This document shows positions 18,896-43,779 of a stretch of DNA of 64,000 nt, piece by piece (the first letter of the stretch is position 1; each line of letters starts with the position of its first letter). Location: NCBI RefSeq assembly GCF_008274585.1, contig NZ_VTRT01000004.1, forward strand, positions 372,001 to 436,000, read 5' to 3'. The DNA comes from Pedobacter sp. BS3. GTDB taxonomy: Bacteria > Bacteroidota > Bacteroidia > Sphingobacteriales > Sphingobacteriaceae. The translations under genes were made by a program, and so were the position numbers. Under the pieces are notes generated by a model that was not told where the DNA came from, did not search any database, and saw only the letters and a program-made list of their open reading frames with translations.

Positions 18896-19074
18896 CATGT
18901 AAACGGCCTGTTCTTAATTTATTGTCCGTTATTCGTAAATCGTTTGGGAGTTGATTGGAGAGGTAAAACCAAGTTGTATTTAGCACTTTTTTTTACGTGG
19001 TTGCAATCAACGCAAATCGATCCACTAATGGGCACAAAACTATGCTAATTTTTACTTTCTCCAAAATTTAAAAC

Positions 19075-39383: not shown

Positions 39384-39412
39384 ACAAACAGCCGGATTTT
39401 CCGGCTGTTTGT
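39384..39412 (+). terminator. asd terminator
   Basis: ACAAACAGCCGG (39384-39395) and CCGGCTGTTTGT (39401-39412) form a perfect 12-bp stem with a five-base loop. The T-rich tail is weak (GTTATAATTAT), and the hairpin ends just before the dacB start, so it separates asd from dacB. Confidence 0.8.
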
Positions 39413-39426
39413 GTTATAATTATACC

Positions 39427-40833
39427 ATGAAACAGTTCATTACCCTGTTATTTCTCTTTATCACACAACTTGCCGCCGCCCAGAAGCTGGAGCAGCGTAT
39501 TGCTAAAGCTTTTGAGCGTTTTGAAAAGGATGAACAGATGCGCTATGCCATAAGTTCGCTTACCGTATTGAACACGGCGACAGGACAGGTGGTATTTTCT
39601 AAAAATGGTGATATCGGTTTGGCGTCGGCATCTACACTGAAAACCGTAACCTCGGCAACCGCGTTTCATGTGCTTGGCGCTGATTTTACCTATCAAACTA
39701 CATTAAGCTATTCGGGTTCGATAACTGACGGCACACTTACCGGCGATTTAATCATCGCCGGTTCCGGCGACCCGACCCTGGGAAGTCCGCGGTACGCAAA
39801 AACCAAAGAACAGGCCGTACTGGATAATTGGGTCGCTGCTATCCGCAAAGCGGGCATCAAAAAAATAAACGGGCGTATTATTGGCGATGATAGTTTGTTC
39901 GGTACGGCATCGTTGCCTATTGGCTGGTTATGGCAGGATATGGGTAATTATTACGGGGCAGGATCGCCTTCGTTATGCTGGCGTGAGAACCAGTACGATC
40001 TGATTTTTAATCCCGGCAAGGTAGGCGAACCGGCAACGCTGGTACGTACGCAGCCTGCTATGGGTTATTTGCAGATCATCAATGAAGTTACCACGGGTAA
40101 ACCCGGAACCGGCGATAACGTGTATGTTTACTCGGCGCCTTACTCGAACCTGGTTTATTTGCGGGGAACGTATGCCAGCGATCTGCATAAAGTGGTATCG
40201 GCATCGCTGCCTGACCCGGCTTTTGAATGCGCTTATCGTTTACACGATACCTTAAACCGGGTTGGTATCAATGTAAGCGGCCAGACCACTACCAGTCGCC
40301 GGTTAACTGATGAACACATTACAGTACCGTTAGCCAGTAACACATTAGCCATACATCAATCGCCCACCTTATCACAAATGGTGTATTGGTTTAACCAGAA
40401 AAGCATTAACCTGTACGGCGAGGAATTGATACGCGAGATGGCCGTAAAACAGGGTAAAACCGGAAGTACGGAGAACGGTGCGGAAGCGGTACGCGATTTC
40501 TGGCATGAAAAGCTCGGTATCGATAAAAACGCTATGAATATCATTGACGGCAGCGGACTTTCGCCGGCAACCCGTATCACCACACGGGCAATGGCGCTTA
40601 TATTACAATCGGTAGTGAAAGAGCCCTGGTTCGATAGCTATTACGACAGTTTACCCTTGTTTAATAACATGAAAATGAAGAGCGGCAGCATCAGCGATGT
40701 GCTGGCTTATGCCGGTTACCAGGACCATAACGGGGCAAAGTTGTGTTTCTCATTTATTGTAAATAACTATAATGGCTCAACATCGGGCATTAAGCAGAAA
40801 ATGTTCCGTGTGCTGGATGAGCTGAAGCAGTAG
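39427..40833 (+). CDS. dacB: D-alanyl-D-alanine carboxypeptidase/endopeptidase (PBP4, family S13)
   Basis: The product has 468 residues from the ATG at 39427; the TTG at 39409 lies in the terminator hairpin and is rejected. Signal peptide about 1-18 (FLFITQLAAAQ). Active-site motifs of S13: SxxK in SASTLKTVTS, SxN in NQKSINLYGEE, and KSG in MKMKSGSISDVLAYAGY. The insert domain between the first two motifs, typical for PBP4, is present (about 80-280). It trims peptidoglycan cross-links and stem peptides in the periplasm. Monocistronic. Confidence 0.95.
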   Translation: MKQFITLLFLFITQLAAAQKLEQRIAKAFERFEKDEQMRYAISSLTVLNTATGQVVFSKNGDIGLASASTLKTVTSATAFHVLGADFTYQTTLSYSGSITDGTLTGDLIIAGSGDPTLGSPRYAKTKEQAVLDNWVAAIRKAGIKKINGRIIGDDSLFGTASLPIGWLWQDMGNYYGAGSPSLCWRENQYDLIFNPGKVGEPATLVRTQPAMGYLQIINEVTTGKPGTGDNVYVYSAPYSNLVYLRGTYASDLHKVVSASLPDPAFECAYRLHDTLNRVGINVSGQTTTSRRLTDEHITVPLASNTLAIHQSPTLSQMVYWFNQKSINLYGEELIREMAVKQGKTGSTENGAEAVRDFWHEKLGIDKNAMNIIDGSGLSPATRITTRAMALILQSVVKEPWFDSYYDSLPLFNNMKMKSGSISDVLAYAGYQDHNGAKLCFSFIVNNYNGSTSGIKQKMFRVLDELKQ

Positions 40834-40856
40834 ATAAGCGAATAGCGGTACTTAAA

Positions 40857-41054
40857 TAATGTGAGTTCGGGTTAAGGCGTAGGCTCGTCCCGATTTGCAA
40901 TCGGGATGCCAGAAAACGGCGTTTGCAACGCCGCCATGTTGCTTAAGACAATCAAAGGCCGCCATTATCGGCGTTACAAACGCCGGAGATTTATGCACTC
41001 GTTTTGCAAACGAGCGCAAACAGATTGTGCGCTTCCTATCCCGAACTCACGTTA
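40857..41054. repeat. 198-bp element with terminal inverted repeats and four equal hairpins
   Basis: The ends are TAATGTGAGTTCGGG and, inverted, TAACGTGAGTTCGGG (14 of 15 match). Inside are four perfect hairpins, each exactly 17 nt with a 7-bp stem and three-base loop, at 40889-40905, 40917-40933, 40969-40985 and 40998-41014. Three share the loop context TTTGCAA. A weaker AGCGCA/TGCGCT hairpin follows. No coding frame fits. With the next element it fills the 393-bp gap after dacB. It is a MITE-like or structured-RNA element. Confidence 0.8.
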
Positions 41055-41082
41055 TATAGTGTTTTCTGTATATCGTAAAAAA

Positions 41083-41172
41083 GGGACTGTTTCAAAAGTC
41101 AAAAAGCAGCGTCATTTCGATCCCTCCCGTACGTACGGGATCGGGGATGACAAGAGCTTTTGAGACAGCCCC
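41083..41172. repeat. 90-bp MITE-like palindromic element
   Basis: The ends GGGACTGTTTCAAAAG and CTTTTGAGACAGCCCC are inverted repeats matching in 14 of 16 positions. Inside, GTCAT and ATGAC enclose the palindrome CCCGTACGTACGGG. The whole can fold into one long stem. Elements with CTTTTGAGACAGCCCC ends are, to my recollection, common in Sphingobacteriaceae intergenic regions. Confidence 0.75.
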
Positions 41173-41226
41173 TAAACAAACTATTCTGAAACTATCATCA
41201 GCTATTACCTGCTGCTTAAGCGCTGT

Positions 41227-43779
41227 TTAATTTACGCTAAGCTTGGTTTGTACAGTTCTATTATTTTGTTTAACGGTTACTACGTATACTCCGGGCAAAT
41301 ATCCCTGGATATTAAATGAAATGGAGGATGTTTCTGTATCGGCATTATAATTTAATCTTTTAACAATCCTGCCGGCCATATCTGATATCAGGATGGTGGT
41401 TGCACCTTTGGCCCCGTTCTCAATATGCACATTAACGATATTGTTAGAAGGATTAGGTGAAACCGTTACGGCAAATGTGTTGTTTTGGGGCTTATCTATG
41501 GCAGCGGGCGCTATATTATGCTGAGTGGTTGTCATCTGGTTAGGCCCGGTAGCAGTATCATAGAAATCCACATCGTCAAAATATATTAGCTCTCCTGATG
41601 TTGCCGTACCATTACTTGCAAAGCAAAATCCGGTCAGGTTGGTAGTAGTGGACGGATTGGTGTACATACCTGTTGTGCCGGCCAATACTCCATCTACATA
41701 CAGTGAAGCCGTGTTGGTCGACAGGTTGGCTACTACTTTGATCAGTTTCCATACGCTGCCGCTAACGGGCATGGTTGCTGTACCTACCTGGGTCCATCCG
41801 GAGCCATTATTTGCCTTGATCTTATAAGTTGTAGTACCTCCGCTGCTTTCGGCAAAAACAGCAAAGAAAAATACGGTTGTCTGAGTTCCCCCTGCAGTAC
41901 CTAAAATTCGCCAGCTAAAGCTTCCGCCAACAGGTATGGCTGCCGGCCGGCAACGGAATTCCAGGGTTTTATTAGTACTTGCACCCTCTGTTTTTTTCAC
42001 GCCGGCCATCCAGGTGCTTGAGCCATCATAGATGCATAATGCACGGTCGCTTTGATAACCGTGGTTATCTTTTGCTATGTATGCACCATATCTTGTTGAT
42101 GAAGTGCCCGCCCATGTATAGCCCGTCGGCAAAATTCCATGTGGCCAGTTTGTATCGCCATTAGCTTCGGCAGCATTGTTTTCAAACGTGCTGGCAGTTT
42201 GGTAAAGTTCCAGCTCGCTTAAGCCGATCTGCCCGCTGCCGTTAACGGTTACACGTACATAGCGGGCATTGATGGGTGAAAAGCTGGTATAATTTAAGCA
42301 GTAATGCGTAGCATTAGTGTATGTTTTAACAGGTATCCAGGTTGTACCGTCGGGTGATAACTCAACGGTAGCCGATTCCTGCTTTCCAAATAACAACGCT
42401 ACACCCACCGTTTTGATATGGTATATCTGCTGAAGGTCGAGCTGGTATACGCCGCTATTGGTACCAATGGCGCTTGCCCAGTAATTGGTGCTGCCGTCGA
42501 AGGCTGCGGCCGCACGAGCCGTGATATGGCTGGGGAAAGTGGCGTTAAGCGTTGTTAAGGGACTTATGGTAATGGCGCCCGTTTTATACTTGGTTTTCAG
42601 ATCTATACGGTTTTGCTCGGGGCGGACGATCTCAATTTCCTTTTGCCAGATAGCCTGGGTATTCGGGTTAATTGTTTTTGCGTAGTTATCTCCAAACTGC
42701 AATAAGGTATTTGGCCCTATGGGCGCTACCCAGGTATTGCCGCTGGGCCTTTTAGGCGTTCCGGGATCAGGGAACGTGGCTACAGGTGTGGTCCAGGTAT
42801 TGCCGTTATCTGTAGAAAATGTAACCTCCACATCGGGTGTACCATAGGTTAAGGCTAAAACACCATTTGGCATCAGGATTAAGCATGGATTTTTGCCGCT
42901 GGCGGCCGAGCCTGCTCCCGGAAGCGTAGTAGGGGTTGACCATGTCTGACCCTTATCTGTTGAACGTGAATATAATAAGGGCAACGTTACATCGGGATCG
43001 TTTGTGCTGTGTTTCATGATCATTAACCATGAACCGTCGGGGCAACGGGTAAACGTCCCTTCATCTGTAGGGTAGGTTGTGCCGGCTATTTCTATCGGGT
43101 TTCCGCTGCCATCCAGCATGGGCCCCCAGGTTTTACCTCCATCGGTTGATTTTAATACATAAGTACGAAAGTTTGATGAAAACGAATAACGTATGTAAGC
43201 GCAGGTATACAACGTTCCATCCGGTTCTTCTATCATATCTTTATGCATCCTGATGCCGAGCACCGTTTGAGTAAAGCTCACCATGCCATCGGTATGCTTG
43301 GTATAGCTTGCACCATTGTTTACCGAGGTATAGTAAACCAGCGGAAAGTTATGCTGATCAACATAAGTGGGTTTAAACTCTAATGCAAGGATTTTGCCGT
43401 TTTTAAGTTTGATGGCGCTGCCAAAGCGTGCAACATTTGCCGATACCGTCCAGCTTACCCCGTCATTTGCATAACCGGTCTTTAGCTTGGGCTCGATACC
43501 GGGTGGCAGCGTAGCTGAATCGATATAAATTGCCCATGATAAACGCAAACTTCTGAAAAAATCGCCGGTAGGGCCTACCGTATCAATGGCCAAGACTGCC
43601 GGTACACGTACATAATTGTAAGTAGTTGCGCTGAGATCCTGGCCATTTGATGGAATGATCGTTTGCCTTGGCGAAGTTGCATCAATGGTTAATGATTGGG
43701 CGTAACTGTGTGTTACACCTGCCGCAGAAACTAACGATAGCGATAGTTTTGCTAATGTTAAAGCATAAGGGTTTTTCAT
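41227..43779 (-). CDS. Secreted BNR/sialidase-fold protein with discoidin and sorting domains
   Basis: The product has 850 residues. Signal peptide about 1-27. A six-bladed beta-propeller of sialidase type covers about 30-385, with Asp-box repeats (STDKGQTWSTP, STDNGNTWTTP, STDGGKTWGPM). An F5/8 type C (discoidin) sugar-binding domain follows (about 415-530, VELSPDGTTWIPVKTY, RYVRVTVNGSG), then a LamG-like domain (about 560-745) and a type A T9SS sorting domain (VSPNPSNNIVNVHIENGA, YLPGVYVVTVKQNN). Whether the propeller hydrolyses sialic acid or another sugar cannot be told; the catalytic Arg triad was not verified. It borders the xylan locus on the opposite strand. Confidence 0.85.
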   Translation of the reverse strand: MKNPYALTLAKLSLSLVSAAGVTHSYAQSLTIDATSPRQTIIPSNGQDLSATTYNYVRVPAVLAIDTVGPTGDFFRSLRLSWAIYIDSATLPPGIEPKLKTGYANDGVSWTVSANVARFGSAIKLKNGKILALEFKPTYVDQHNFPLVYYTSVNNGASYTKHTDGMVSFTQTVLGIRMHKDMIEEPDGTLYTCAYIRYSFSSNFRTYVLKSTDGGKTWGPMLDGSGNPIEIAGTTYPTDEGTFTRCPDGSWLMIMKHSTNDPDVTLPLLYSRSTDKGQTWSTPTTLPGAGSAASGKNPCLILMPNGVLALTYGTPDVEVTFSTDNGNTWTTPVATFPDPGTPKRPSGNTWVAPIGPNTLLQFGDNYAKTINPNTQAIWQKEIEIVRPEQNRIDLKTKYKTGAITISPLTTLNATFPSHITARAAAAFDGSTNYWASAIGTNSGVYQLDLQQIYHIKTVGVALLFGKQESATVELSPDGTTWIPVKTYTNATHYCLNYTSFSPINARYVRVTVNGSGQIGLSELELYQTASTFENNAAEANGDTNWPHGILPTGYTWAGTSSTRYGAYIAKDNHGYQSDRALCIYDGSSTWMAGVKKTEGASTNKTLEFRCRPAAIPVGGSFSWRILGTAGGTQTTVFFFAVFAESSGGTTTYKIKANNGSGWTQVGTATMPVSGSVWKLIKVVANLSTNTASLYVDGVLAGTTGMYTNPSTTTNLTGFCFASNGTATSGELIYFDDVDFYDTATGPNQMTTTQHNIAPAAIDKPQNNTFAVTVSPNPSNNIVNVHIENGAKGATTILISDMAGRIVKRLNYNADTETSSISFNIQGYLPGVYVVTVKQNNRTVQTKLSVN

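Follow-up and report, generated by a model that had tools for sequence, protein, structure and literature searches.

A putative IS982-type MITE carrying REP hairpins in the genome of Pedobacter sp. BS3

A short repeated element in the 64,000-nucleotide stretch of Pedobacter sp. BS3 DNA analyzed here (the window) is most probably a MITE that is, or formerly was, moved by an IS982-family DDE transposase and that carries four REP hairpins of the RAYT kind as its cargo. We put the probability of this reading, which was drawn from sequence comparison, at about 0.8. The features on which it is built are terminal inverted repeats (TIRs) shared with IS982 elements, target duplications, spread in multiple copies, and the kinship of two of the hairpins with the flanks of a RAYT gene.

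Structure and copies of the element

The consensus of eight full copies is 196 nt long, and on this basis the whole element was placed at 40858..41053, with the presumed target duplications enclosing these 196 bp; the window copy is 95.9% identical to the consensus. It sits between two convergent genes (39409-40833, plus strand; 41227-43779, minus strand). Its 14-bp TIRs, which have one mismatch, were assigned to the IS982 type by inverted-repeat analysis and by their match to the IS982 ends of relatives (left TIR, 40858..40871, plus strand; right TIR, 41040..41053, minus strand). The original prediction of a TIR-bounded element at this place was borne out, as the ends of the window copy (TAATGTGAGTTCGGG and CCCGAACTCACGTTA) are inverted repeats of each other over 15 nt, apart from one mismatch, and they continue to pair imperfectly out to 22 nt (40853-40874 with 41037-41058, 86%). 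The 4-bp target duplication positions are occupied by AAAT on the left (40854..40857, plus strand) and ATAT on the right (41054..41057, plus strand), an imperfect pair, and the window copy thus has no exact target duplication. As is characteristic of MITEs, the element has no transposase gene, is shorter than 300 bp, and occurs in several copies.

Between the TIRs lie four hairpins in which a perfect 7-bp stem closes a 3-nt loop, just as had been predicted: H1 (40889..40905, CCCGATT-TGC-AATCGGG), H2 (40917..40933, CGGCGTT-TGC-AACGCCG), H3 (40969..40985, CGGCGTT-ACA-AACGCCG), and H4 (40998..41014, CTCGTTT-TGC-AAACGAG). The full H1 stem is 8 bp, the H4 stem extends beyond one A.C mismatch, and H2 and H3 are mutual inverted repeats (17 nt, 94%). 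As modeled by covariance (see below), the four hairpins are two inverted REP-pair units. The unit H3-H4 (40969..41023, plus strand) occurs also without TIRs and next to a RAYT gene; the unit H1-H2 (40891..40933, minus strand) is diverged and inverted relative to it. The H4 foot (41017..41024, plus strand) has the consensus CAAACAGG and reads CAAACAGA here, and a recurrent truncation point lies immediately 3' of it.

The central spacer between H2 and H3 (40934..40968) is inverted in 2 of the 18 copies compared (L017 and L020). Such inversion is what a site-specific recombination site or an integron-like attachment array might show, and it is equally expected from recombination between the inverted repeats H2 and H3. 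No recombinase gene was seen by eye among the open reading frames (ORFs) at 36 to 46 kb. A recombination site, which the original prediction had offered as an option, thus gained no positive evidence, and we regard it as extremely improbable.

The original prediction hinged on the existence of a second copy, and the element proved to be a multicopy repeat. In its own genome (4.81 Mb, 27 contigs, 99.4% complete), it has at least 49 BLAST places (40 of 76 candidate regions scored), and about twenty whole or clipped copies are present besides many hairpin-only units. The eight full-length loci (L001-L007 and L017) have pairwise identities of 85 to 96% (mean, 91.9%) and unrelated flanks. Eleven loci (L008-L016, L019, and L020) keep the left end and stop directly 3' of the H4 foot. 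For 10 of these 11 loci, a base-by-base comparison of the junction was made, and the first 0 to 3 letters beyond it match the full copies; the eleventh, L013, sits in a tandem array (L013/L027, G000:C6:21569-22079) in which the H3-H4 part is repeated as 88-bp units joined after CAAACAG. The left end is also present in L023, which stops elsewhere, at query position 119. It is lost in L018, L021/L022, and L030, and the junction at the H4 foot recurs in L018 and L021/L022. One clipped locus, L008, runs 440 bp onward into another repeat family that ends in TIR-like sequence, and an exact 5-bp duplication flanks the 627-bp whole. The own-genome BLAST list contains 16 further places with the H3-H4 unit without TIRs, which are more diverged.

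Stem sequences are nearly identical among the own-genome copies. The proposal that shape rather than sequence is conserved therefore fails between these copies; it holds among the hairpins of one copy and among RAYT loci across genomes.

Outside its own genome, the element had no exact match in the named genomes searched, and the sole other genome of the same genus that was examined likewise had none. Among 300 other genomes of the family, with two candidates scored per genome, 11 had matches, all of them to short hairpin units.

Several other repeats were observed in the course of these comparisons. Adjoining the element, at window positions 41082-41173, is a second short element with inverted repeats (AGGGACTGTTTCAAAAG ... 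CTTTTGAGACAGCCCCT); 35 places in the same genome match portions of it, chiefly the left half. The clipped, center-inverted copy L020 (G000:C1:752198) is flanked by a direct repeat of about 21 bp (TGGAGCTATTGAAAGCGTAAA), far longer than a usual target duplication. Three places (L034, L035, and L036; G000:C1:500163, C1:578403, and C23:310774) belong to a separate repeat family whose ends resemble TTAACGTGAGTTCGATTAATAATC and which has an additional nested end of the GTGAGTTTTGGG type.

IS982-type ends and target duplications

Exact target duplications of 4 to 5 bp flank five of the eight full copies (shuffled-flank mean, 1.0; 15 of 20,000 shuffles reached 5). With the length fixed at 4 bp, four of the eight are exact and 27 of 32 letters agree. 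The TIR pattern was found at 113 places in 38 of 301 family genomes, compared with 4 places for a reversed control pattern. Sixty of the 113 places were taken for analysis, of which 30 were pairable at both ends with at most 4 mismatches and were classed by eye. Dropped before duplications were counted were L095, L212, and L236 (926, 1044, and 936 bp; no, no, and partial IS982 match, respectively) and the second pairings of L081, L084, and L211. The 30 pairs comprised 14 IS982 elements of 1007 to 1051 bp with a transposase gene and 16 MITE-sized elements of 110 to 332 bp without one. Duplications of 4 to 6 bp were present in 18 pairs (10 of the 14 IS982 elements and 8 of the 16 MITE-sized elements), and shuffled controls had a mean of 3.55 of 30, with 0 of 20,000 reaching 18.

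The ends of the window element match the IS982 elements of relatives over 14 to 20 bp. The transposase of these relatives scored 237 bits against the NCBIfam IS982 model (cut-off, 130) and matches PF13612. Full-length relatives with a transposase between the same ends, which the original prediction had proposed to look for, were thus found as IS982-family elements of about 1.04 to 1.05 kb with target duplications, and its option of a nonautonomous transposon gained support. By its TIRs and target duplications, the element is classified here as an IS982-type MITE. In relatives (including G164, G088, G085, and G128), IS982-type TIRs were also observed about 30 to 150 bases from contig ends, as expected for multicopy insertion sequences.

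A search of the own genome with the transposase protein of the relatives, run without a control genome, gave no match, nor did the NCBIfam IS982 model, which matches 5 of 14 control genomes. An active parent in the same genome is frequent for a MITE and is not obligatory. No IS982 transposase is left in the assembly, and this counts against the preferred reading insofar as any present movement by such an enzyme is hypothetical. We infer that one moved the element and has since been lost from the genome. Such a transposase would recognize the TIRs, move the element, and duplicate 4 to 5 bp of A+T-rich target. The interior is accounted for by REP units, as matched by the covariance model, and none of the 16 MITE-sized elements in relatives contains two or more perfect hairpins with 3-nt loops. 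The REP-pair array may have been captured between IS982 ends; since the REP pair occurs independently of the MITE, capture would be the simpler order of events.

REP hairpins and the RAYT gene

Neither the REP identity of the hairpins nor the presence of their transposase in the genome had been recognized in the original prediction. The own genome contains three Y1 transposase genes. One of them, the RAYT gene at C25:189453-189998, is a 188-amino-acid frame with the motifs NHIH, WQ, and YIHQNP, scores 103 bits against the NCBIfam model REP_Tyr_transpos (cut-off, 80), and has arrays of similar hairpins on both sides. A sequence search for a solved structure matching this RAYT returned none at an E value of ≤0.01. 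Its motifs (NH[LIV]H, WQ, and YIH[QN]NP; PMC6006769) and its occurrence among Bacteroidetes agree with RAYT subclass 2.6, and on these motifs we describe it as subclass 2.6-like. The second RAYT gene of the genome (L033, G000:C22:66028) is 51% identical, and its flanking hairpins mostly have 4-nt loops, which points to repeats of another class.

The H3-H4 unit aligned to the C25 RAYT locus with a score of 46 (200 shuffles: mean, 20.3; maximum, 36) and to the other two Y1 transposase loci with scores of 18 and 19. Shuffles for these alignments and for the hairpin counts below were first-order Markov resamplings rather than exact dinucleotide shuffles. From this sequence kinship, the hairpins are taken to be REPs of the kind belonging to the genome's own RAYT, which would be expected to recognize them. 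Among the observations that weigh against the preferred reading, the window copy lacks an exact target duplication, H1-H2 alone scored 26 at the RAYT locus, not above the shuffles (maximum, 30), and stem covariation is thin. Nor is the GT[AG]G foot tetranucleotide conserved among the copies compared, with GTAG on the H1 side in the window and GCAG in most copies; subclass 2.6 is reported to lack this tetranucleotide (PMC6006769).

To build a covariance model (R1), 31 units of the own genome were aligned with 5 from RAYT flanks; 98.3% of the cells in this alignment are paired. Changes on both sides of a stem occur in 5 of 14 pairs, so that the predicted covariation is present, but nearly all of it comes from the five RAYT-flank rows, and the H4 helix has none. 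On the window, R1 matched H3-H4 with 87.5 bits (plus strand) and H1-H2 on the opposite strand with 21.1 bits (E = 4e-4). The small palindromes occur in many copies, with at least 56 R1 matches in the own genome. R1 also matched 16 of 101 family genomes. For 12 of the 15 other genomes, the best place was compared with the positions of RAYT genes, and in 6 of these 12 it lay within 600 bp of one; these six have the six lowest E values. The family-level relatives named in the comparison include Pedobacter and Mucilaginibacter.

Hairpins of this shape are generally enriched beside RAYT genes. We counted perfect hairpins with a stem of at least 7 bp and a 3-nt loop within 500 bp of the gene (near) and in the outermost 500 bp (far). 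At 29 RAYT loci, there were 122 near, 4 far, and 3.6 in shuffled sequence; at 61 further, nonoverlapping loci, there were 72, 6, and 11.4, respectively. The corresponding near, far, and shuffled counts for 4-nt loops were 10, 6, and 3.2 (29 loci) and 21, 16, and 9.2 (61 loci). At least one near hairpin was present at 24 of the 29 and 28 of the 61 loci (far, 3 and 6), leaving 5 and 33 loci, respectively, without a nearby hairpin, a further point against the preferred reading. These counts supersede two earlier ones (124, 8, and 3.3 at 30 loci; 101, 8, and 15.0 at 71 of 80 loci) that share loci and include one locus shorter than the windows. Loops of 5 nt (and of 7 nt in the second superseded count) were also enriched, because longer stems with odd loops contain them, and loops of 4 and 6 nt were hardly enriched. 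In the superseded 71-locus count, stems varied widely among loci (37 distinct stems among 101 hairpins), and GTT, GAT, or ATT adjoined the loop in 84 of the 101. A stem of at least 7 bp, a 3-nt loop, and mostly R-T-T or GAT by the loop, beside a RAYT gene, may serve as a signature for finding such repeats in Bacteroidota.

The TIR was not found at the C25 RAYT locus (score, 18; shuffle mean, 16.8; maximum, 25). This bears on whether the RAYT alone moves the whole element, TIRs included, as a long REP cluster or TIRtron-like unit whose likeness to IS982 is coincidence or target preference. For either of the two systems, the RAYT is the one matching transposase that the genome contains intact, the clipped copies terminate at a REP foot, and TIR families of the RAYT type (TIRtrons and TIRYTs), i.e., relatives of tyrosine transposases with TIR repeats, have been described (PMC3733652). 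However, in those families the TIRs flank the tyrosine transposase gene (PMC3733652), whereas here they are IS982 ends and are missing from the RAYT locus. Both ends match IS982 elements over the 14 to 20 bp given above and share their 4- to 5-bp target duplications. Single-strand transposition of the IS200/IS605 type is not known to leave a target duplication. We therefore consider movement by the RAYT alone very unlikely.

Within the preferred reading of an IS982-type MITE with REP cargo, the shared truncation point and the two inverted centers suggest that the element may be processed by the RAYT as well. In other groups, TnpAREP enzymes cut near the REP, either 5' or 3' of it (PMC8266576); together with the 11 left-end copies that stop at one nucleotide, this suggests that the recurrent truncations may result from cutting by the RAYT at the H4 foot. 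The different stop point of L023 speaks against such cutting. A tentative extension, to which we give somewhat less than even odds, is dual use of the element, in which the IS982 ends would serve for jumping and the REP hairpins would allow the RAYT to cut at one exact site after the H4 foot, giving rise to one-ended copies, tandem arrays, and center inversions. If true, REP pairs would spread by borrowing a DDE transposon. Copies ending at a single nucleotide offer a concrete, testable candidate cleavage site for RAYT subclass 2.6, whose repeats have so far been described, in the accessible text of PMC6006769, just as "atypical."

Known systems, genomic position, and folding

To our knowledge, the spread of REPs is still debated, and there are few demonstrations of their movement by RAYTs. 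Carriage of REP pairs by a DDE transposon would add a second route for their spread. IS982 MITEs are known, e.g., MITECca01 of Cardinium, which like the present element is a gene-less, many-copy sequence of about 200 to 240 bp with IS982-type inverted repeats in a Bacteroidota genome (PMC9769881). The interior of MITECca01, however, still contains parent sequence, and intact parents are present in the same genome (PMC9769881), whereas our element contains a REP array and its parent was not found. REPs, BIMEs, and REPINs are likewise hairpin repeats beside a RAYT gene, scattered genome-wide in inverted pairs, and "atypical secondary structures" have been noted for subclass 2.6 (Bertels group 5) of Bacteroidetes (PMC6006769); here, in contrast, the pairs lie between DDE transposon ends and have no GT[AG]G tag. 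REPs have also been described as insertion targets of insertion sequences (PMC1525189), a case that has the REP-IS association in common with ours, but there the IS lies within the REP and here the REPs lie within the transposon. No REP-carrying MITE was found in the openly accessible literature searched (titles, abstracts, and passages). IS982 MITEs and the REPs of such RAYTs being known already and their combination being, within that literature, what is new, the element appears to combine two established types of mobile DNA in one hybrid.

All eight full copies lie between convergent genes, compared with a background convergent share of 12 to 33% (four small estimates; P = 6e-8 to 1.4e-4 for 8 of 8). 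Twenty loci were classed, of which 12 were convergent, 4 were same-direction, 3 lay within a mechanically called frame, and 1 was unclassed; of 20 further unit loci, 9 were convergent, 10 were same-direction, 1 lay within a frame, and none was divergent. This siting would suit a functional RNA or DNA structure retained on the downstream side of genes, for example as a terminator acting in both directions or as an mRNA stabilizer, with mobility belonging to its history. REPs in general favor spots between convergent or same-direction ORFs (PMC3733652). The same bias is, however, expected from insertion combined with selection against promoter damage, and the ORFs were called mechanically as longest frames, with small background samples. 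A terminator scan found no U-tract terminator at the ends, and a single weak 5-pair site (0.4 expected). A terminator role is possible, and we hold it to be quite unlikely that such a function, rather than mobility, explains the element.

The RNA fold of 40853-41058 had z scores of -7.6 (plus strand) and -8.1 (minus strand), and the fold of the plus strand as single-stranded DNA had a z score of -6.2; none of 200 shuffles was as good in any of the three cases. In both RNA minimum-energy folds, H2 and H3 form one long arm, accompanied by H1, H4, and a closing stem. In the DNA fold, H2 is paired with H3 and H1 is formed, with H4 absent as such. Of the multi-arm, snowflake-like fold originally proposed, the closing stem thus appears in the RNA folds, but the four separate arms do not. 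These strong folds on both strands are what would favor a family of structured RNAs or riboswitches whose fold is conserved, another of the options first proposed. That option has, in our judgment, next to no chance of being correct: between-copy stem variation is slight, the two strands fold about equally well, and the repeats track RAYT genes. Because of the equal folding of the strands and the recurrence of the hairpin shape beside RAYT genes, a single-stranded-DNA substrate fits better than an RNA. A riboswitch or other RNA family was also rejected on the Rfam scan of the window, which had no match at the element. Its only matches lay elsewhere in the window and were to a tRNA and, at 18970-19031 on the minus strand, to a SAM-II riboswitch (51 bits).
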